Shown here in pieces: positions 2 to 64,000 of a stretch of DNA of 64,000 nucleotides (its first letter is position 1; each line of letters opens with the position of its first letter). The notes below the pieces were generated by a model. The model ran no database searches, was not told the DNA's origin, and saw only the letters and a program-made list of their open reading frames with translations. Made by a program: the position numbers and the translations under genes. Source of the DNA: Gemmatimonadota bacterium. GTDB taxonomy: Bacteria > Gemmatimonadota > Gemmatimonadetes > Gemmatimonadales > GWC2-71-9. The stretch covers positions 1-64,000 of the forward strand of contig VGVQ01000001.1 of the NCBI GenBank assembly GCA_016874005.1. The letters are read 5' to 3'.

Positions 2-238
2 CCCCTTCCGGAACCTAATTTCGAGGCTGAGGGTGAGGGGCTAGCGCACCTCGTCGTAGGGGTGCTGCTCTTCTGTGGCTGCTGGTTGTGGTTGCGATCC
101 CGCGCCCATGACACCGTCCAAGCCATCGCCTCCTGCGTGGAGAGCTACGACCCCGGCGAGCCGGTGTCTCGGCGGGAGGCGGTGCTCGGCTGCTACCGGG
201 AGCTGGGGGAGAAAGACGACACCAGTCCATGGGAGTAG
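2..238 (+). CDS. C-terminal part of a small membrane-anchored protein, cut by the window edge
   Basis: The frame is open from base 2 to a TAG at 236-238 (78 codons) and has no obvious start inside the window. The translation has one hydrophobic stretch (about residues 16-28, LVVGVLLFCGCWLWL) followed by a charged, soluble-looking tail ending KDDTSPWE. Codon use in the second half is strongly G/C in third position, as in real genes of this window. It converges on the rep operon. I do not recognise the family. If it starts inside the window, the first candidate is a GTG at 62, without a clear ribosome-binding site. Confidence 0.4.
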   Translation, partial: PLPEPNFEAEGEGLAHLVVGVLLFCGCWLWLRSRAHDTVQAIASCVESYDPGEPVSRREAVLGCYRELGEKDDTSPWE

Positions 239-54891: not shown

Positions 54892-56376
54892 ATGACGATG
54901 CTCAGGGTGCTCGCCGCGGCGTCCTTGCCGCGCAACGCGGTCCTCGGATTCCTGGCGCTCGCGCTGTTTCCAAGGGCGGCGCGTTCCCAGCCGGTGGCGG
55001 ATCATCCCCGGGTTCGTGAGGCCATCGCGGTGTTGGGGCGGTGGCTCGACGCCGAGCGGGCCTTCAAGCGAATCCCCGGCTTGTCGGCGGCGATCGTCTC
55101 GGATCAGGAGGTCATCTGGCAAGCCGGCTTCGGCTTCGCGGATCTGGCCCGCCAGACGCCGGCCACCGCCACGACGCTCTACAGCATCTGCTCGATCTCC
55201 AAGTTGTTCACCAGCATCGCCGCGATGCAGCTCCGCGACGCTGGCAAGCTCCGGCTCGACGATCCGGTCGCGAAGCACTTACCCTGGTTCTCGCTCAAGA
55301 ACCGGAACCCGGCCGATGGCGAGGTCACCATCGAGGGTCTCATGACCCACGCCTCCGGCCTGCCGCGGGAAGCGGCCTATCCCTATTGGAGCGCGCCGAG
55401 CTTCGAGTTTCCGAGCCGAGACCAGATCAAGGGGGCGTTGGCGGGCCAGGAGATGCTCTACCGCCCGGAGCGGTTCTTCCAGTACTCTAATCTTGGCATG
55501 ACCCTGTTGGGCGAGATCGTGATCGCGGCCACCGGGAAGACGTTCGACCAGGCGGTCCGCGGCCAGCTGCTCGACCCCCTCGGGATGCGCGACACCCACA
55601 CCGACATGCCGGCCCACGAGCGGGGCCGCCGCCTCGCCACGGGGTACGGCAGCTGGGGCCGCTCGGGCGATCGGGCCGCCCTGCCGTTCTACCAGGCCCA
55701 GGGCATCGCCCCGGCCGCCGGGTTCGCGTCGACCGCGCTCGACCTGGCCCGGTTCGCGTCGTGGCAATTCCGGCTCCTGGCCAAAGGCGGCACCGAGTTG
55801 CTCTCGGCCAACACGTTGCGGGAGATGCAGCGGGTCCACTTCGTCGATCCGGACTGGGAGACCCGGTGGGGACTCGGGTTCGTCGTCTGGCGCCAGGAGA
55901 ACGAAACCCTGGTGGGCCACGATGGCGCCTGCCCGGGCTATCGCACCGCGCTCGCCATGAACCCGACTCATCGGCTCGCCGCGATCGTGATGACGAACGC
56001 CATCGACGCCGACGCGTCCAGCCTGGGCGAGCGAGCCCATGCCTTGATGCTGCCCGCCATCAAGGCCGCCCGGAGCGACTCGGGCCCGGCCAAGCCACCA
56101 GAGCCCGGGCTCGAGCCGTACTTCGGTGGGTATCAGTCGTCGTTCGGCGGCGAGATGCACGTGGTCCGGTGGGAAGGCGGGCTCGGAACCATCTGGCTGC
56201 CGAGTGACAATCCCGCCAAGGCGGTCACCAAGTACCGGAAGATCGGGGAGCACGCTTTCCGGCGGATTCGGGGCGACGGGGAGCTGGCGGAAGAACTGCG
56301 TTTCGACGTCGGGAGCGACGGGCGAGCCATCCGGGCCCGGTCGAACTACAACGTGATGCCCCGGATCGATCCCTAA
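54892..56376 (+). CDS. Exported serine hydrolase, beta-lactamase class C-like (CubicO)
   Basis: This 494-residue protein has a signal peptide (LGFLALALFPRAARSQ). The catalytic motifs are SISK (about residues 102-105, Ser nucleophile and Lys), YSN (about 199-201) and a late GHDG in place of KTG, as in esterase-type relatives. The last about 80 residues form a separate beta domain. Probable peptidase or esterase of the cell envelope. It follows the cox-like operon after 3 nt but is not functionally related. Its TAA lies in a CGTTAGGG sequence at the convergent junction with hisIE. Confidence 0.88.
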   Translation: MTMLRVLAAASLPRNAVLGFLALALFPRAARSQPVADHPRVREAIAVLGRWLDAERAFKRIPGLSAAIVSDQEVIWQAGFGFADLARQTPATATTLYSICSISKLFTSIAAMQLRDAGKLRLDDPVAKHLPWFSLKNRNPADGEVTIEGLMTHASGLPREAAYPYWSAPSFEFPSRDQIKGALAGQEMLYRPERFFQYSNLGMTLLGEIVIAATGKTFDQAVRGQLLDPLGMRDTHTDMPAHERGRRLATGYGSWGRSGDRAALPFYQAQGIAPAAGFASTALDLARFASWQFRLLAKGGTELLSANTLREMQRVHFVDPDWETRWGLGFVVWRQENETLVGHDGACPGYRTALAMNPTHRLAAIVMTNAIDADASSLGERAHALMLPAIKAARSDSGPAKPPEPGLEPYFGGYQSSFGGEMHVVRWEGGLGTIWLPSDNPAKAVTKYRKIGEHAFRRIRGDGELAEELRFDVGSDGRAIRARSNYNVMPRIDP

Positions 56377-56963
56377 CGACCGCGCCGTTCGAGCGCCTCC
56401 GCGACCTCGGCCCAGGAACGGCCGAGGGCTCGCAACGCCACGACGGCGTGATAGACCAGGTCCGCGGCTTCCTCGACCGCGCGATCGGGGTCGCCGTCAG
56501 CGCAGGCCACCGCGAGTTCGCCGGCTTCCTCTCCGAGCTTCTTGAGGCGGAGGTTACGATCGCCGAGCAGCTTGGCGGTGTACCCGGTGGCGCCGGCCGT
56601 CGCGGCCCGCTCCCGCACCACCGCGTCGAGCCGGCCCAGGGCCGTGGCGGGCTCGGCCCCGAAGCAGGTCCGGGCCCCGGTGTGACAGGCCGGCCCGGCC
56701 GACCGCACCCGGGCCAGCACCGCGTCGCCATCGCAGTCGAGCGCCAGGCCCACCACCCGTTGGACGTTGCCGCTGGTCGCGCCCTTGTGCCACAGCCCGC
56801 GGGAGCGCGATCGGTAGTGCATCTCGCCGGTCGCCACGGTGCGCTCGATGGCTTCGCGGTCGGCGAAGGCGACCATCAGGACCTCGCCCGAGACGTCGTC
56901 CTGGGCCACCACGGTGATCAGCCCACCGCCCTTGGCGAAATCGATGGCGTCGAGGTCGATCAT
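56373..56963 (-). CDS. hisIE: Bifunctional phosphoribosyl-AMP cyclohydrolase / phosphoribosyl-ATP pyrophosphatase
   Basis: This protein has 196 residues. The N-terminal HisI part (about 1-105) has MVAFADREAIERTVATGEMHYRSRSR (in pieces), LWHKGATSGN and the zinc-binding DCDGDAVL and CHTG. The C-terminal HisE part has the pyrophosphatase helices KKLGEEAGELAVACADGD and EEAADLVYHAVVALR. It performs steps 2 and 3 of histidine synthesis. Last gene of the his operon, 25 bp after hisN. Confidence 0.93.
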   Translation of the reverse strand: MIDLDAIDFAKGGGLITVVAQDDVSGEVLMVAFADREAIERTVATGEMHYRSRSRGLWHKGATSGNVQRVVGLALDCDGDAVLARVRSAGPACHTGARTCFGAEPATALGRLDAVVRERAATAGATGYTAKLLGDRNLRLKKLGEEAGELAVACADGDPDRAVEEAADLVYHAVVALRALGRSWAEVAEALERRGR

Positions 56964-56988
56964 TGGCTCCCCTTGGCGTCGAGGCGGC

Positions 56989-57768
56989 TCATCGGCCGCC
57001 CTCGACCAGCAGGCTCCGGACCGTCAGGTCCAATACCTTGTTAGTGGCGATCGTGTCCCCCCCGAACCCCGTCCGCCGCCCCCGCCAGTCGGTCAGGACT
57101 CCTCCAGCCTCCTCGATGATCGGCAGCAGGCAGGCCGAATCCCAGGCGTGCATCTTGTCGTCGACCATCACCTCGGCGCGTCCGGTGGCCACCAGCAGGT
57201 ACCCGAAACAGTCGCCCCAGGTCCGGACCACTCGGGCCTGCCCGGCCAGGGTCTGCCAGGCCTCGCGACGACGGTCGCTCTCGGGAAACCGGTCGTCGGT
57301 GGTGAGCACCGTGGCATGGGCGAGCGAATCGGTGGTCGACACCGCGCAGCGGGAACCCTTCCACCACGCTCCCAAACCGGTCACCGCGACCACCGTCTCC
57401 TCGACCGCGGCGCAGTTGATGGCGCCGCCGACGACCTCGTCGCCTTCAGTCACCGCGATCAGGCTCCCCCACAGCGGCACCCCGGCCACGAAACTCTTGG
57501 TCCCGTCGATCGGATCGATCAGCCAGCGCCGCCGGGCGGCGGGATTGCCGGAGTGGCCGAACTCCTCGCCCAGCACCGCGTCATCGGGGAACCGCTTGGC
57601 GATCCACTCGCGGGCGACCCGTTCGGCCTCCCGATCGGCCACGGTGACCGGGCTGCCGTCGCCCTTGTGGTCGACCGAGTCGAGCTTGCCGAAATGGCCT
57701 AACGCCGCCCGGCCGGTGACCTTGGCCACCTCGGCGAGGGCTTCGAAGAGGAGCTTTCCTTCGTTCAC
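56989..57768 (-). CDS. hisN: Inositol-monophosphatase-family histidinol-phosphatase
   Basis: This 259-residue enzyme has the family metal motifs LGEEFGHSG (Glu), [20 protein letters not shown] and the C-terminal [15 protein letters not shown]. It supplies the histidinol-phosphate phosphatase activity that HisB here lacks. The GTG at 57768 overlaps the hisF stop as GTGA. Confidence 0.9.
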
Positions 57769-58523
57769 CAGGTCCTCCTGGTTGGAATCCCCGCGGCGAT
57801 CAGGGCGGTTTTCAGATCCCGCACGGTGACCACCCCGTCGTGGACGATGCCGGCCACCAACGCCGCGTCGGCGCCGGCCGCGAGCGCCTCCACCAGATGC
57901 TCGGCCCGGCCGGCGCCGCCGCTCGCGATGACCGGGACCGAGACCCGATCCGCGATGGCCCGGGTCAGCTCGAGATCATAACCGGCCCGAACCCCGTCGC
58001 GATCGATGCTGGTCACCAGCAACTCGCCGGCCCCGATCTCCACGGCCCGCGCCGCCCAGGCCACCGCGTCGAGATCGGTGGGCTGCCGGCCCCCCTTGGT
58101 GTAGACCCGCCAGCCGTCACCGGAGCGGGCCGCGTCGATGCTCACCACCACGCATTGGCTGCCGAATCGCTCCGCGGCCTCGGATATCAGCCCGGGTCGC
58201 TCGACGGCCGCGGTATTGAGGCTCACCTTGTCGGCGCCGGCGCGCAAGACACGGGCAACGTCGTCCGCCGAGCGGACCCCGCCGCCCACCGTGAGCGGGA
58301 TGAAGAGCCGCTCCGCGGTGGCTCGAACCACCTCGAGCAGGGTGGCGCGGGCCTCGGCCGAGGCCGAGATGTCGAGAAAGACGATCTCGTCGGCACCCTC
58401 CCGCTCGTACCGCTCGGCGGCCTCCACCGCGTCGCCAAGATCGCGCAGGTCCCGGAACTTCACGCCTTTGACGACTCGGCCACCTTGGACGTCGAGGCAG
58501 ACGATGACCCGTTTGGAGAGCAT
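57765..58523 (-). CDS. hisF: Imidazole glycerol phosphate synthase cyclase subunit
   Basis: This 252-residue (beta-alpha)8 enzyme begins [18 protein letters not shown] with the catalytic Asp, and has [34 protein letters not shown] (second catalytic Asp) and VIASGGAG. It works with HisH to make the imidazole ring. Its ATG shares a base with the hisB stop. Confidence 0.95.
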
Positions 58524-59050
58524 CAGACGAGCCGGACCGAGCCCTTGGTGGACATGGTGTCCTCTCGGGGCCGAAGCGCTTGGCCGAGGCACCGGCCCAG
58601 CGCCTTGAACGCGGCTTCGACGATGTGGTGACGGTCGGAGCCGCGAATGACCCGCAGGTGGAGGGTGGCGCCGGCGTTCTCCGCGAACGAACGCATCCAG
58701 TGGTCGTAGAGCTTGCTCGGGATCGGTCCCCGATAGTACGCTCGGCCGCCGAGATCGAGAGCCGCCTCGACCAGGGCATCGTCCATCGGGATGACCTGGT
58801 GGCCGAATCGTTCGATCGGCCGCTCCCGCTCGCCCGCGACGGCTTTCCCCAGGGCGATGGCGACGTCTTCGATGAGGTGATGAGGAAGATCGCCCCGGGC
58901 CCTCGCCACCAGCGGCAACGCGGCGTAGCGAGCCAGCGTCGTCATCATGTGGTCGAGAAACGGCACCGTGGTCTCGATCTGCGAGAGTCCCGGCGCCGGG
59001 AACTCCACCACGATCTCGGTTTCGTTGGTTTCACGCGTAATCCGGGTCAT
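58523..59050 (-). CDS. hisB: Imidazoleglycerol-phosphate dehydratase, divergent
   Basis: This 175-residue protein retains FLDHM near residue 31, an HH pair in [30 protein letters not shown] and a late [16 protein letters not shown], which supply the metal ligands. The usual first DDHHTVED segment is altered to a shorter PHHLIED form, and the protein is about 20 residues shorter than typical HisB. There is no phosphatase domain, consistent with hisN in the operon. Confidence 0.88.
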
Positions 59051-59760
59051 TCGGCGAACTCCAGTCCGACCGCGATCGGATCGATCCGGTCCGTGTACAG
59101 TGCCATGCCGATCACCGCCCGGGCCGCTCCGACGGCGGCCAAGGCGCGGAGGTCCTCGATGGTTCCGATCCCGCCGGAGGCGTGGATCGGGTGCCGCGAG
59201 GTCCTGACGGCCTCCTCGATGACCGCGTGGTCCGGGCCCTCGAGTCGGCCTTCGCGATGCACCGCGGTCACCAGCACTCCGGCCAGCGGGAGGGGATCGA
59301 TCCGGGCGAGGAAGTGATCGACCGCGACTCCCGCTCCGTGACCCCAGCCGCGGGTCACCACCTCGCGCTGCCTAACGTCGGCGGCGACCACCAGGCGCCC
59401 CGGCCACCGGGCCGCCACCGCCGCCAGCCAATCGGCGTCTTCGACCGCCTTGGTCCCCACCACCACGGTGTCGGCACCGGCCGCGAGCAACGCCTCGATC
59501 CGACTCGCCGAGGCGACCCCGCCCCCGACCTGGACCCGCTGCCGGCGGAGCGACAACACCGCGGTCACCGTGCCGTCGTTGTCGCCTCGCCCGGTGGCGC
59601 GATCGAGGTCAACCAAGTGGAGATGCGAGAACCCCGACCTGGCCCATCGCTCGGCGACCGCGACCGGATCGGGTAACCGAACCCGCTCGGCGTCGTAATC
59701 GCCGCCGACCAGCTGAACGCAGGCGCCCTCGCGGAGGTCGAGCGCGGGGACCGCGATCAT
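59047..59760 (-). CDS. hisA: ProFAR isomerase
   Basis: This 237-residue (beta-alpha)8 isomerase has PALDLREGACVQLVGGD with the catalytic Asp, the VGGGVASASRIEALLAAG phosphate site, and HASGGIGTIEDLRALAAVG. The second catalytic region is GVLVTAVHREGRLEG; HisA usually has Asp at that turn (TDIxxDG), and here it reads AVHREG. That is unusual and may affect catalysis. It overlaps hisH and hisB by 4 nt. Confidence 0.9.
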   Translation of the reverse strand: MIAVPALDLREGACVQLVGGDYDAERVRLPDPVAVAERWARSGFSHLHLVDLDRATGRGDNDGTVTAVLSLRRQRVQVGGGVASASRIEALLAAGADTVVVGTKAVEDADWLAAVAARWPGRLVVAADVRQREVVTRGWGHGAGVAVDHFLARIDPLPLAGVLVTAVHREGRLEGPDHAVIEEAVRTSRHPIHASGGIGTIEDLRALAAVGAARAVIGMALYTDRIDPIAVGLEFAE

Positions 59761-60353
59761 CGCCGAACCGACCCGAGGTAATCCGCGATCAGCCGCACTC
59801 CTGGCTCGGAGCTCTTCTCGGGGTGGAACTGAACCCCGAGCACCGCGTCGCGCCGGACGGCCGCCGGGTATCGGTCGCCTTGGTGCTCGCTCCAGCCAAT
59901 GACCACCCGCTCGTCCACCGGGCGGCAGACGTAGCTGTTGGCGTAGTATGCCTCACGAAGCCCCACCCGCTCGAAGATCCGATCGCCGGCGGGCTCGATG
60001 GCGTTCCAGCCGATCTGGGGGACTTCGGTCGCGCGCAGTCTGGTGACTCGGCCGCTGAAAACGCCGAGGCCGGGCCCGCCGCCCTCTTCCGAGTCGTCGA
60101 ACAAGAGCTGCATCCCGAGGCAGATCCCAAGACACGGGAGCCCGGCCTCGATCGCCGCCCGGAGCGCGTCGCGGGCCGGACCGATCCGACCGGCCGCCTG
60201 GGCGAAGGCGCCGACGCCTGGTAGGACCAGCAGGTCGGTGTCGAGGGCCCGAAGCGGGTCGGGTTCGACCGTTGGCTGGATGCCGGCCCGGGCAATCGCC
60301 TTGGCCAGCGAGTGGATGTTGCCGGCGCCGTAGTCGAACAGGGTCACCCTCAC
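59757..60353 (-). CDS. hisH: Imidazole glycerol phosphate synthase glutaminase subunit
   Basis: This 198-residue glutamine amidotransferase has LFDYGAGNIHSLAKA at the start, the catalytic Cys in GICLGMQLLFDDSEE and His in GVQFHPEKSS. It feeds ammonia to HisF. The GTG at 60353 overlaps the hisC stop (GTGA). Confidence 0.95.
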   Translation of the reverse strand: MRVTLFDYGAGNIHSLAKAIARAGIQPTVEPDPLRALDTDLLVLPGVGAFAQAAGRIGPARDALRAAIEAGLPCLGICLGMQLLFDDSEEGGGPGLGVFSGRVTRLRATEVPQIGWNAIEPAGDRIFERVGLREAYYANSYVCRPVDERVVIGWSEHQGDRYPAAVRRDAVLGVQFHPEKSSEPGVRLIADYLGSVRR

Positions 60354-61396
60354 CGGGGCAGCTCGCGGAACGCCGCGACCAGTCGATCGCAAATGGGCGC
60401 GGGGGCAACGGTGATCCGGAGCAGGTCGCCGAGCACTGGCGCGTTCGGGAACGCCCGCACCGCGATCCCGCCGCGGGCCAGCGCCGCCGCGGCGCCAGGG
60501 GCGTCGGGAACCGACACCGCGATGAAATTGGCATCGCTTCCGAACGAAGAGTAGCCGATCGAGGCGAGCCGGCCCCGAAGCTCCTCACGGGCCTCCCTGA
60601 CGTCTCGCACCACGCCGGCCAGCCACTGCCGGTCGTGGCGGACCGCGGCCGCCGAGGCCCGTTCGGCCAGAGCGTTGACTTTGTAGGGCCCGCGGGCTTT
60701 TTCGATTTCCTCGATCAACGCCGGCGCGCCGACCGCGTAGCCCACCCTCAGGCCCGCCAACCCCCAGACCTTCGAGAAGGTTCGGGTGACCACCGCTCGT
60801 CCGGACGCCACCGCATCGAGCACCCTGCTCCCGCCGGCGAACTCGACATACGCCTCGTCGAGAATCACCAGCCGAGGCGCCCGCTCGAGCAGCCGGTCGA
60901 TCGCGTCGGCGGAGGCCGCCTTGCCGCTCGGGTTGTTGGGCGAGGCGAGGTAGATCAGCTCGGCGCCGGTCGCCAGCAGGCCATCCACATCGGCGGCCCC
61001 ATCGGCAAGCACCGGCACGCCGATCGGACGGAGCGAGTTGGCCGCCGCGAAGTGCGGGGTCATCACGAAGGTGGGCGCCGGGAACGCCAGCCGCCACCCC
61101 GGCTCGCCCAGCGCCCGCATCGAGGCGTCGAGCACGTCGTTAGAGCCGCAGCCGCCGACCACGTTCTCGGGCCGGACCCCAAGCCAGTCGGCGAGGCCCT
61201 CGCGGAGCGGTCCGGTGCCGGCGGAGGGATAACGCGCCGGCCGCTGGTGGGCGAACGCCGCGATCTCCGCCAGCGCCGAGGGCGCCGAGCCGAAGAGGCT
61301 GGTGTTGTCGGAGAGATCGATCTCGACCGGGCCGGCCTCGGTCCGGTAGACCTTGAGGTTGCGGTAATCGTCACGGGGACGCCAAGGGGTCGTCAT
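60350..61396 (-). CDS. hisC: Histidinol-phosphate aminotransferase
   Basis: This 348-residue fold-type I PLP enzyme has IDLSDNTSLFG, VVGGCGSNDVLDASMRALG, YLASPNNPSGKAA, ILDEAYVEFAG and the PLP Lys in TFSKVWGLAGLRVGYAVG. AGGA lies just before the ATG at 61396, which overlaps the hisD stop. Confidence 0.94.
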   Translation of the reverse strand: MTTPWRPRDDYRNLKVYRTEAGPVEIDLSDNTSLFGSAPSALAEIAAFAHQRPARYPSAGTGPLREGLADWLGVRPENVVGGCGSNDVLDASMRALGEPGWRLAFPAPTFVMTPHFAAANSLRPIGVPVLADGAADVDGLLATGAELIYLASPNNPSGKAASADAIDRLLERAPRLVILDEAYVEFAGGSRVLDAVASGRAVVTRTFSKVWGLAGLRVGYAVGAPALIEEIEKARGPYKVNALAERASAAAVRHDRQWLAGVVRDVREAREELRGRLASIGYSSFGSDANFIAVSVPDAPGAAAALARGGIAVRAFPNAPVLGDLLRITVAPAPICDRLVAAFRELPR

Positions 61397-62700
61397 CGTT
61401 CCTCGCTTTGCCACTGCTCGGCCGCGGCCCGGTGACCGGGGAAGCCTTCGATGGTCGCGAGCAAGGCGGTATCCCGCGACAGCCGGGCCGCGGCTCTCGA
61501 GTCGACCCGCTGCTCGGTGACCCACCGGACGAAGGTCTCGGTGCCGAGTCCCGAGAAGGCTCGGGCCAGGCCCGAGGTCGGGAGCACATGGTTGCCACCG
61601 GAGAGATAGTCACCGAAGACGACCGAACTCGACGGGCCGACGAACACCGCCCCGGCCGTGTCGATGCCGGCAGCCAGCGGCTCGGCCTCGGCGGTGGCCA
61701 GGAGGAGATGCTCGGCGGCGAACTCGTTGGCGAACTGCTGGGCCGCGGCCACGGTCGGCGTGAAGAGAACCCCTCCCTGGCCGCGGAACGCGGCCCGAAC
61801 GATCTCGCCGCGATTGGCATCCGCCACCCGATCGGTGAGCCGGTCGAGGAGCCGGCGGCAGAGATCCTGGTCCCCGATCACCAGCGCCACCACCGTGGCG
61901 TCGGGATCGTGCTCGGCCTGGGCGATCATCTCGATCGCCACGGCGTCGAGCGGGCTGGTCCGGTCGACGATCGCGAGCAACTCGGTGGGGCCGGCCGGGC
62001 CGTCGATTCCGACTCGGTGAGCGACCGCGAGCTTCGCCTCGGTCACGTAGGCGTTGCCGGGACCGACGATCCGATCGACGGCCGCCACGGTCTCGGTCCC
62101 GTAGCCTAACGCTCCGATGGCCTGAGCGCCGCCGATGGCGTAGACCCGATCGGCCCCCGCGATGGCGGCCGCCGCGAGAATGGGGTCCGGCGGGACTCCG
62201 TCGGAGCCGGGGGGCGACACCACCGCCACCGACCGGCAACCGGCGACCTTGGCGGGAATGACGCCCATCAGTACCGAGGAGGGATAGGAGGCCCGGCCGC
62301 CGGGGGCATAGACCGCGACCCGGGCAACCGGGTGCGGGACCCTCCGGAGCAAGACCCCGGGCTCGGTTTCGCACTCGACCACCCGAGGGGCGCAGGCCCG
62401 GTGAAAGGTCTCGATGTTCGAAGCGGCGCGGCGCAGGGCGGTGTCCACCGGCTTGGGCAGCCGCCGCACCGCGGCCTCGACCCGCTCGGCGGGCACCACC
62501 ACCGGGCCGGGCTCGACCCGGTCGAGTTCGCGGGTCCATCGCCGGACCGCCACGTCCCCTTCGGCCGCCACGGTCGCCACGATCTCGCGGGCGCGGCGGC
62601 GGACGTCGTCGGGGATGCCTCGGGAGCGGTCGCGGAGGAGCTGCCGGTCGCCGGCCGAGAGGGCCTCGAGGCTGCCGGTGAAGCGGAGCGCGAGGGTCAT
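61393..62700 (-). CDS. hisD: Histidinol dehydrogenase
   Basis: This 435-residue enzyme oxidises histidinol to histidine in two steps. Motifs are YAPGGRASYPSSVLMGVIPA, YAIGGAQAIGALGYGTETV, VDRIVGPGN, the zinc/catalytic segment AQAEHDPDA, and SGGNHVLPTSGLAR. The length is normal. Overlaps hisG by 4 nt. Confidence 0.95.
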   Translation of the reverse strand: MTLALRFTGSLEALSAGDRQLLRDRSRGIPDDVRRRAREIVATVAAEGDVAVRRWTRELDRVEPGPVVVPAERVEAAVRRLPKPVDTALRRAASNIETFHRACAPRVVECETEPGVLLRRVPHPVARVAVYAPGGRASYPSSVLMGVIPAKVAGCRSVAVVSPPGSDGVPPDPILAAAAIAGADRVYAIGGAQAIGALGYGTETVAAVDRIVGPGNAYVTEAKLAVAHRVGIDGPAGPTELLAIVDRTSPLDAVAIEMIAQAEHDPDATVVALVIGDQDLCRRLLDRLTDRVADANRGEIVRAAFRGQGGVLFTPTVAAAQQFANEFAAEHLLLATAEAEPLAAGIDTAGAVFVGPSSSVVFGDYLSGGNHVLPTSGLARAFSGLGTETFVRWVTEQRVDSRAAARLSRDTALLATIEGFPGHRAAAEQWQSEER

Positions 62701-63554
62701 GGCACCAACCGCTCGATTCGAGTCACCAGCACACCGGTGGCGCCCAGGCTCTTCAAGCCCCGAATGGTGGCGTCGATCTTCGCCGCCGCCACCACCGCGT
62801 GGACCGCGACGTGGGCCCCGCCATCGAGGACGTCCATGACCGTGGGTCCGTCGATTCCGGGCACGACCTCCTTGATCCTGCCTAACGAGGCACGGGGGAC
62901 GTTCGCCATCAGGTACCGCTGGCCCCGGGCCCGCACCACCGAGTCGAGCCGGGCCACCAGGGCGTCCAGTTCGCCGGCCTGCGACGGCGCCACCGGGTCC
63001 CTGGTCACCAGTCGGGCGGTCGAATCCAGGATGGTCGCCAGCTCGCGGAGGCCATTGGTCCGCAGGGTGGAGCCGGTCGACACCAGATCGACGATCGCAT
63101 CGGCGATCCCGAGGTGCGGGGTGATCTCCGCCGCCCCGGAAACCGGGACCAGCTGGACCCCTCGCCCTTGCTCGGCGAAGAACCGCTCGGTGAGCCGCGG
63201 GAACGCCGTCGCCACCCGCACGGTTCCGTCGACCTGGGCCGCGGCCTCGATCGGGCTGTCGTCTCGCACCGCGAAGACCAGCCGGCAGCGGCCGAAGCCC
63301 AGGTCGAGACGGTCGGCCAGTGGGCGCGACGATTCGAGCACCAGGTCGCGTCCGGTCACGCCACAGTCAGCCGCCCCGTCGGCGACGAACTCCGGGATGT
63401 CCTGCGATCGGGCGAAGATCACCTCGAGATCGTCGGACACGGCCGCGATCAGGGAGCGGTCGCTCGACGGCCGCACCTCGAGGCCCGCATCGGCGAAGAG
63501 CGCCCGGGCCTCTTCCGCCATCCTTCCCTTGTTGGGTAATGCGACCCGCAGCAT
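62697..63554 (-). CDS. hisG: ATP phosphoribosyltransferase, long form
   Basis: This 285-residue enzyme catalyses the first step. Motifs are RVALPNKGRMAEEA at the start, FARSQDIPEFVADGAADCGVTGRD (in pieces), and the PRPP-binding AIVDLVSTGSTLRTNGL. The extra C-terminal domain (about 215-285) is the ACT-like histidine-feedback domain of long HisG, so no HisZ is needed. GGAGGG lies 4 nt before the ATG at 63554. Confidence 0.95.
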   Translation of the reverse strand: MLRVALPNKGRMAEEARALFADAGLEVRPSSDRSLIAAVSDDLEVIFARSQDIPEFVADGAADCGVTGRDLVLESSRPLADRLDLGFGRCRLVFAVRDDSPIEAAAQVDGTVRVATAFPRLTERFFAEQGRGVQLVPVSGAAEITPHLGIADAIVDLVSTGSTLRTNGLRELATILDSTARLVTRDPVAPSQAGELDALVARLDSVVRARGQRYLMANVPRASLGRIKEVVPGIDGPTVMDVLDGGAHVAVHAVVAAAKIDATIRGLKSLGATGVLVTRIERLVP

Positions 63555-63565
63555 CCGACCCTCCG

Positions 63566-63597
63566 AAAACGAAAAGCCCGTCCCAAGGGGACGGGCT
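63566..63597 (-). terminator. His attenuator terminator
   Basis: On the minus strand AGCCCGTCCC and GGGACGGGCT (63588-63597 and 63575-63584) form a 10 bp stem with a 3 nt loop, followed by TTTTCGTTTT. A leader segment GGGGACGG (63645-63652) can pair with the first arm and act as the antiterminator. Confidence 0.88.
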
Positions 63598-63622
63598 GGT
63601 GAACACGATGCGACGTTGCCTG

Positions 63623-63706
63623 CTACCTCCGCGCGCGTCCCGAGCCGTCCCCACACCTCTCGGCGTGGTGATGATGGTGGGAATGCCGGTGCGCGACCCG
63701 AATCAT
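63623..63706 (-). CDS. hisL: His leader peptide
   Basis: A 27-codon frame from ATG 63706 to TAG 63623 encodes MIRVAHRHS followed by five His in a row, then AERCGDGSGR. Seven of the first 14 codons are His (63665-63691). The frame lies between the promoter and the terminator and directly before hisG, as expected for attenuation by ribosome stalling at His codons when His-tRNA is scarce. The ATG is only about 7 nt after the -10 element, so the peptide is probably translated from a leaderless end. Confidence 0.88.
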   Translation of the reverse strand: MIRVAHRHSHHHHHAERCGDGSGRARR

Positions 63707-63713
63707 GGCAGGG

Positions 63714-63742
63714 ATGCTACCGCTCGGACCAACGATCGTCAA
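63714..63742 (-). promoter_or_regulatory. Promoter of the his operon
   Basis: On the minus strand TTGACG (63737-63742) and TAGCAT (63714-63719) are spaced by 17 bp. It lies just after the hisS stop. Confidence 0.8.
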
Positions 63743-63749
63743 GTCGGGC

Positions 63750-64000
63750 TCACTCGACGATCCGGCGGACCGTGGCAACCAGATCGCCGCTCGTCACGGT
63801 GTGCTGTTGCCCGGCTCGGAGATCGCGCACGGTGGCGGTGCCGGCCGCGACCTCGCCGGGCCCCAGGACCACCGCCACCGGAATCGCCTTGCGATTGGCG
63901 AACCCGATCTGCTCCCGGAGCGGATCCGGATCCGGATACAGCAGGGTCCGCACCCCGGCCCGCCGGAGCTCGCCCGCCAGCCGGGTCGCCGGCCGGCGTT
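63750..64000 (-). CDS. hisS: Histidyl-tRNA synthetase, C-terminal part
   Basis: The last about 83 residues of HisS are present, continuing past the right edge. They form the anticodon-binding domain: LAGELRRAGVRTLLYPDPD, LREQIGFANRKAIPVAVVLGPGE and a final strand ending RRIVE. The catalytic domain is outside the window. It lies immediately upstream of the his operon promoter on the same strand. Confidence 0.9.
   Translation of the reverse strand, partial: RRPATRLAGELRRAGVRTLLYPDPDPLREQIGFANRKAIPVAVVLGPGEVAAGTATVRDLRAGQQHTVTSGDLVATVRRIVE

Follow-up and report, generated by a model that had tools for sequence, protein, structure and literature searches.

The histidine biosynthesis operon near the end of a 64,000-nucleotide stretch of Gemmatimonadota DNA (the window) raises the question of whether his transcription in this phylum is controlled by a translating ribosome and, if so, how that ribosome is loaded. 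A sequence-only reading of the window had proposed a classical his attenuator, probably leaderless, in an unusual phylum. A follow-up by folding and comparison with relatives makes a ribosome-mediated his transcription attenuator close to certain. That such an attenuator is combined with a leaderless leader gene is very likely, as judged from sequence comparison and folding models.

Organization of the hisS–hisG region

All elements of the attenuator occupy the hisS–hisG interval of the minus strand, and the complete his operon, hisG-D-C-H-A-B-F-N-IE, lies downstream of the leader (Table 1). The promoter-like site consists of a -35 element (TTGACG, 63742-63737) and a -10 element (TAGCAT, 63719-63714) separated by a 17-nt spacer. 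The leader ATG at 63706 is positioned 7 nt 3′ of the -10 element, and transcription is predicted from this sequence to start at, or a few bases from, the ATG. The leader peptide, MIRVAHRHSHHHHHAERCGDGSGRARR, is encoded by 27 codons, seven of which specify His, and is terminated by a TAG codon (63625-63623). This leader is the only short ORF (60 codons or fewer) on either strand of the 64 kb that contains at least five His residues in nine codons, and 20 replicas of the window generated with a second-order Markov model contain no ORF with such a His run.

The intrinsic terminator AGCCCGTCCCCTTGGGACGGGCT (63597-63575) forms 10 base pairs, including eight G-C pairs, and is followed by TTTCGTTTTC. 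Its hairpin has the layout AGCCCGTCCC-CTT-GGGACGGGCT with a T-rich tail, and only 0.1 terminator-like sites are expected in shuffles of the region. The GGGGACGG segment (63652-63645) is complementary to the terminator 5′ arm (CCGTCCCC). The promoter, the seven-His peptide, the terminator with its U-run and the antiterminator segment listed in the sequence-only reading are all present, and they recur in relatives.

The HisS protein encoded next to the operon (L002:8751-10358, minus strand; window 63750 onward) contains 535 residues and matches a 406-position family model in two separate parts. This sequence pattern suggests that HisS probably holds an extra segment, an insertion of about 100 residues.

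Table 1. Features of the his leader region and neighbouring genes in the window
Feature	Position	Strand	Basis or remark
hisS (histidyl-tRNA synthetase), 3′ end	63750..64000	minus	TIGR00442 above cut-off on whole ORF
Promoter TTGACG-17-TAGCAT	63714..63742	minus	9/12 consensus matches; 0 such sites in 50 shuffles of the 600-bp region
Leader peptide ORF (27 codons, 7 His, no Shine-Dalgarno)	63623..63706	minus	Sequence and Shine-Dalgarno test on 97 leaders
Possible protective hairpin	63645..63682	minus	MFE fold; UCCC/ACC of His codon region with GGU/GGGGA; overlaps antiterminator segment
Antiterminator segment GGGGACGGCTCGGG	63639..63652	minus	Within leader ORF, directly 3′ of His run; positional equivalent of CGGG(T/C)CGGGG in relatives
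Intrinsic terminator hairpin	63575..63597	minus	5′ arm AGCCCGTCCC pairs with its own 3′ arm or with the antiterminator segment
T-rich tract TTTCGTTTTC of terminator	63565..63574	minus	Sequence
Shine-Dalgarno GGAGGG of hisG	63559..63564	minus	Sequence
hisG, first gene of the operon	62697..63554	minus	ATG at 63554; TIGR00070 and TIGR03455 above cut-off
hisD, hisC, hisH, hisA, hisB, hisF, hisN-like, hisIE	56373..62700	minus	NCBIfam best hits

Conservation of the leader and terminator in relatives

HisG homologues were sampled from the organism's own order and from named genomes. The close named relatives belong to Gemmatimonadota, and the remainder are metagenome-assembled genomes (MAGs) labelled Eisenbacteria and Myxococcales. 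A His-rich ORF precedes hisG at every locus with enough upstream sequence (106 loci, duplicates included). The set used for analysis comprises 97 distinct upstream regions with a recognisable start, including those of own-family members with divergent HisG. The His-rich leader ORF is found in all 97 regions (Gemmatimonadota, 'Eisenbacteria' MAGs and Myxococcales), and a hairpin with a T-run is located between the leader and hisG in 96 of them, with 60-150 nt separating the leader stop codon from hisG. The alignment of related genomes that had been proposed as a check, in which 56 leaders are aligned, accordingly finds the His codons kept. In Myxococcota, 117 genomes were searched and 49 upstream regions were inspected; the leader is observed in each of the 38 further regions with a close HisG and in several with a divergent HisG.

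Several side observations concern more distant HisG proteins. At four Myxococcota loci with a distant HisG (L214, L216, L217 and L219), the leader is again His-rich and its ATG lies about 36-38 nt downstream of TTGAC, a hint that the leaderless his attenuator either arose more than once or is an old inheritance. Most genomes of the organism's own family encode a divergent HisG (31-49% identity), and HisG in its own genus reaches 64-67% identity, a closeness matched by the HisG of another family. From these identities, it is possible that the his operon and the attenuator were replaced or transferred together in the genus. Among the leaders that accompany divergent HisG, a terminator built around ACGCCGGC replaces GGCCCGTCC at L138, L140, L141, L143, L144 and L145, and the overall layout is unchanged. 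None of the 10 upstream regions from own-family genomes with a short divergent HisG (L128-L137) contains a His leader; in these genomes another gene may stand ahead of hisG.

Predicted leaderless start of the leader gene

The leader start codon was assigned as the nearest ATG before the His run, or as GTG where no ATG is available. TTGAC occurs 34-40 nt upstream of this codon in 84 of the 97 regions, with a mode of 36 (6+17+6+7). This spacing places the end of the -10 element about 5-11 nt before the start codon and, therefore, the usual transcription start within about 0-4 nt of it. A Shine-Dalgarno core motif precedes the start codon in only four of the 97 leaders, and the mean anti-Shine-Dalgarno energy of the leaders (-1.67) is weaker than that of shuffled sequence (-2.39). 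The leader thus displays two sequence features expected of a leaderless gene: its start codon lies about 5-10 nt downstream of the -10 element, at 7 nt in the window, and lacks a Shine-Dalgarno sequence.

Comparable geometry is found at other genes. In the organism's own genome, the pattern TTGAC-18-TANNNT-5..9-ATG matches 15 sites, versus none for the reversed pattern. Genes of the phylum that encode PII-like (glnB), enolase (eno) and antitoxin-like proteins, products named from sequence without a family search, start at an equivalent distance from the promoter. At seven glnB-like loci (L153-L159, in genomes G119, G125, G079, G057, G131, G099 and G003), the ATG follows TTGAC-17-TANNNT by 5-9 nt, and the same promoter-to-ATG geometry is observed at the enolase loci (L160-L163) and the antitoxin-like loci (L164-L169). 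Leaderless transcripts seem, from these sequences, to be common in Gemmatimonadota. By like reasoning in other phyla, Zheng et al. arrived at about 16% leaderless genes in those delta-proteobacteria with any detected (PMC3160421).

The MKLITT, MSTII and MRTTI starts were considered as Thr/Ile leader peptides and rejected, given that they are the starts of the PII-like, enolase and antitoxin-like proteins. These sites then served as positive controls for leaderless genes. No convincing Trp or branched-chain leader turned up when the regions in front of trpE- and ilvB-like genes of the organism's own genome were searched.

The sequence-only reading had placed the ATG about 7 nt after the -10 element, which is exact in the window, and had suspected that the leader lacks a ribosome-binding site, which the 97 leaders bear out. 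Its further suggestion that the leader is probably leaderless gains support at the sequence level from the TTGAC spacing, the missing Shine-Dalgarno sequence and the like geometry at glnB, eno and the antitoxin-like genes.

Predicted antiterminator pairing and ribosome-dependent folding

In the alignment of 56 non-redundant leaders, a CGGG(T/C)CGGGG block is situated inside the ORF, directly after the His run. The block is kept as nucleotides and is read in three frames, as T-G-R-G, as R-V-G or R-A-G, and as S-G-S-G; Thr is encoded by ACG in 27 of 28 cases of the commonest frame. Because the same nucleotides are kept in all three frames, the block is conserved as RNA. Base pairing between this block and the CG(A/G)CCCGTC stretch of the terminator 5′ arm is found in 85% of cells, compared with 29-71% when the register is slid by up to 6 columns. 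A second pairing can form between GCGCGTG near the end of the ORF and the His-Ala-His codons (CACGCGCAY), which leaves the antiterminator block in the loop. This hairpin between the His codons and the ORF end is strong in many relatives, and its statistics are modest due to shared composition. With so little variation in the pairing segments, the covariation signal is weak; whole-strand permutation reached the observed value in 34 of 1000 trials for the antiterminator and in 83 of 1000 for the His-codon hairpin. RNAalifold applied to the 56-leader alignment returned only the terminator.

Equilibrium folding of full-length leaders was dropped as a test of the switch because the terminator nearly always wins, in most relatives even with a stalled ribosome; the switch must therefore be kinetic. 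Transcripts ending before the terminator 3′ arm were used instead, with the stalled ribosome placed at the third His codon. The probability of the antiterminator exceeds 0.5 in 54 of the 56 leaders with a stalled ribosome and in 35 with one positioned on the stop codon, versus 26 without a ribosome and two with a shuffled spacer. The stalled state scores higher than both the free state (P=4e-9) and the shuffled control (P=4e-11), although these P values are optimistic because the rows share ancestry. Because parking the ribosome at the stop codon leaves the antiterminator without a clear block in relatives, the model has to assume that the ribosome is released and that the leader refolds.

In the MFE fold of the window leader, GGU/GGGGA of the antiterminator segment is the direct pairing partner of the His codon region. 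The fold is no more stable than those of shuffles (z 0.23), and a protective hairpin in the window genome is a weakly indicated candidate of the folding model. The window leader flips from terminator to antiterminator once the His codons are excluded from the fold, and masking the full leader up to and including the third His codon in the run decreases the terminator probability from 0.99 to 0.40. On the truncated transcript, the antiterminator is predicted alike in the free, stalled and stop states (0.86, 0.90 and 0.86, respectively). This lack of discrimination between ribosome states is the weakest point for the window genome.

Proposed mechanism

The locus combines a cognate codon run, a terminator before the first gene and an antiterminator that by computation excludes the terminator; these elements are conserved, and their pairings are computed to be mutually exclusive. 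From this arrangement, we infer that the leader responds to histidine. RNA polymerase would begin transcription at the leader ATG or no more than about 4 nt from it, and a ribosome, presumably a 70S ribosome as on other leaderless mRNAs, would load on the 5′-terminal AUG and translate the His-rich peptide. When charged His-tRNA is scarce, the ribosome would stall on the His codons and free the G-rich segment inside the leader ORF for pairing with the terminator 5′ arm. Formation of this antiterminator would allow RNA polymerase to continue into hisG. With ample His, the ribosome would pass the His codons, reach the stop codon and leave. The leader would then refold, in most relatives by a hairpin between the His codons and the 3′-terminal part of the leader ORF that would hold the antiterminator segment in its loop. 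The terminator would form and stop transcription before hisG.

Alternative explanations

The same attenuator could be carried on a conventional transcript that starts further upstream, for example by read-through from hisS, with the ATG reached by re-initiation or without a Shine-Dalgarno sequence. The hisS stop codon (63752-63750) is only 7 bases before the -35 element, and a terminator scan between the two reported none, which makes some read-through RNA likely. An upstream start is nonetheless disfavoured by the fixed distance of TTGAC and the -10 element from the leader start in relatives and by the 93 of 97 leaders that lack a Shine-Dalgarno sequence, and this explanation is considered unlikely. 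Even less credence, to the point of being highly improbable, is given to the view that the short ORF encodes a functional His-rich small protein and that the hairpin is merely its terminator. Metals can be bound by His runs, and the ORF is conserved. However, the ORF always precedes hisG, the sequence after the His run is kept as nucleotides in three frames while the remainder of the peptide shows no conservation, and the leader is complementary to the terminator arm.

The leader might also control hisG translation or act via Rho rather than via an intrinsic terminator, given that leader ORFs without obvious intrinsic terminators exist, such as the mycobacterial cys leaders (PMC1262725). The strong hairpin with a T-run in 96 of 97 relatives and the 60-150 nt between the leader stop codon and hisG argue against this reading, which is improbable. 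Control by a His T-box or another tRNA- or ligand-sensing leader, in place of a ribosome, has precedent in the T-box-regulated his genes of Firmicutes and Actinobacteria (PMC9413887), but the T-box covariance model finds no match in the window leader up to E=5, and no Rfam family, T-box included, reaches the gathering threshold at the loci of ten relatives. The chance that such a leader operates here is almost negligible. Ribosome-mediated attenuation with a leaderless leader gene is thus retained as the best explanation.

Comparison with known attenuators

The enterobacterial hisL of E. coli and Salmonella likewise places a promoter, a seven-His peptide (PMC3896937) and a competing terminator and antiterminator before the his operon. 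Unlike hisL, the leader described here has no Shine-Dalgarno sequence, begins at the predicted transcription start, contains the antiterminator segment within its ORF and belongs to a different phylum. The Rfam His_leader model has no match in the window up to E=5 and none at the gathering threshold in the loci of ten relatives. The label of a classical his attenuator is consequently apt for the downstream his operon, the leaders and terminators of relatives and the RNA-level antiterminator, but the design is not identical to the enteric one.

Leaderless leaders are known from attenuators for other amino acids. The transcript of the Sinorhizobium meliloti trpL attenuator (rnTrpL/peTrpL) also begins with the leader ATG (PMC7298713), but this alphaproteobacterial system senses Trp through a 14-residue peptide and has been studied experimentally, whereas the present analysis is computational. 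Translation-dependent attenuation at Corynebacterium glutamicum ilvBNC employs a start one nucleotide from the leader start codon and, as a further likeness, a hairpin over the leader ORF that functions as an anti-antiterminator (PMC11857589); it differs in sensing branched-chain amino acids, in belonging to Actinobacteria and in having been tested experimentally. The mycobacterial poly-Cys short ORFs are also leaderless amino-acid-sensing leaders according to Canestrari 2020 as cited in PMC13236596, but they respond to cysteine and have no conserved intrinsic terminator (PMC1262725).

Leader-peptide his attenuators are described for Proteobacteria and some Firmicutes (PMC9413887 and PMC2965389). 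Those of the Bacillus cereus group, of Peptostreptococcaceae and others and of Erysipelotrichales combine a His-rich leader with a terminator and antiterminator before his genes; they belong to another phylum, and no leaderless start is mentioned for them in the consulted passages of PMC9413887. In the open-access literature, no report was found of the leaderless-plus-his combination, or of either kind of leader in Gemmatimonadota or Myxococcota, and an earlier prediction in some delta-proteobacteria is possible (Lopatovskaya et al. 2010, as cited in PMC10272879). Apparently, two known designs are combined here in phyla where the combination is unreported. Gemmatimonadota is indeed an unusual phylum for such an attenuator, outside the Proteobacteria and Firmicutes of the literature, but the window is no lone oddity: the predicted leaderless version is phylum-wide and extends to Myxococcota.

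Implications

The attenuator would extend ribosome-mediated his attenuation to two phyla for which no earlier report was found, and the leaderless leader gene would be a conserved rule there, beyond a curiosity of S. meliloti and actinobacteria. The 56 non-redundant aligned leaders provide a large comparative set for asking how ribosomes loaded at the 5′ end stay in step with RNA polymerase, and the genetic tractability of Myxococcus makes direct testing feasible. A more tentative proposal, for which the odds are judged rather low, is that his attenuation in Gemmatimonadota and Myxococcota has leaderless initiation as its standard and perhaps ancestral design, and that this mode of initiation is itself part of the mechanism. 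If so, the ribosome would load as the 5′ AUG emerges and would be synchronised with RNA polymerase without a Shine-Dalgarno sequence, and his expression would depend on the leaderless (70S) initiation capacity of the cell as well as on charged His-tRNA.
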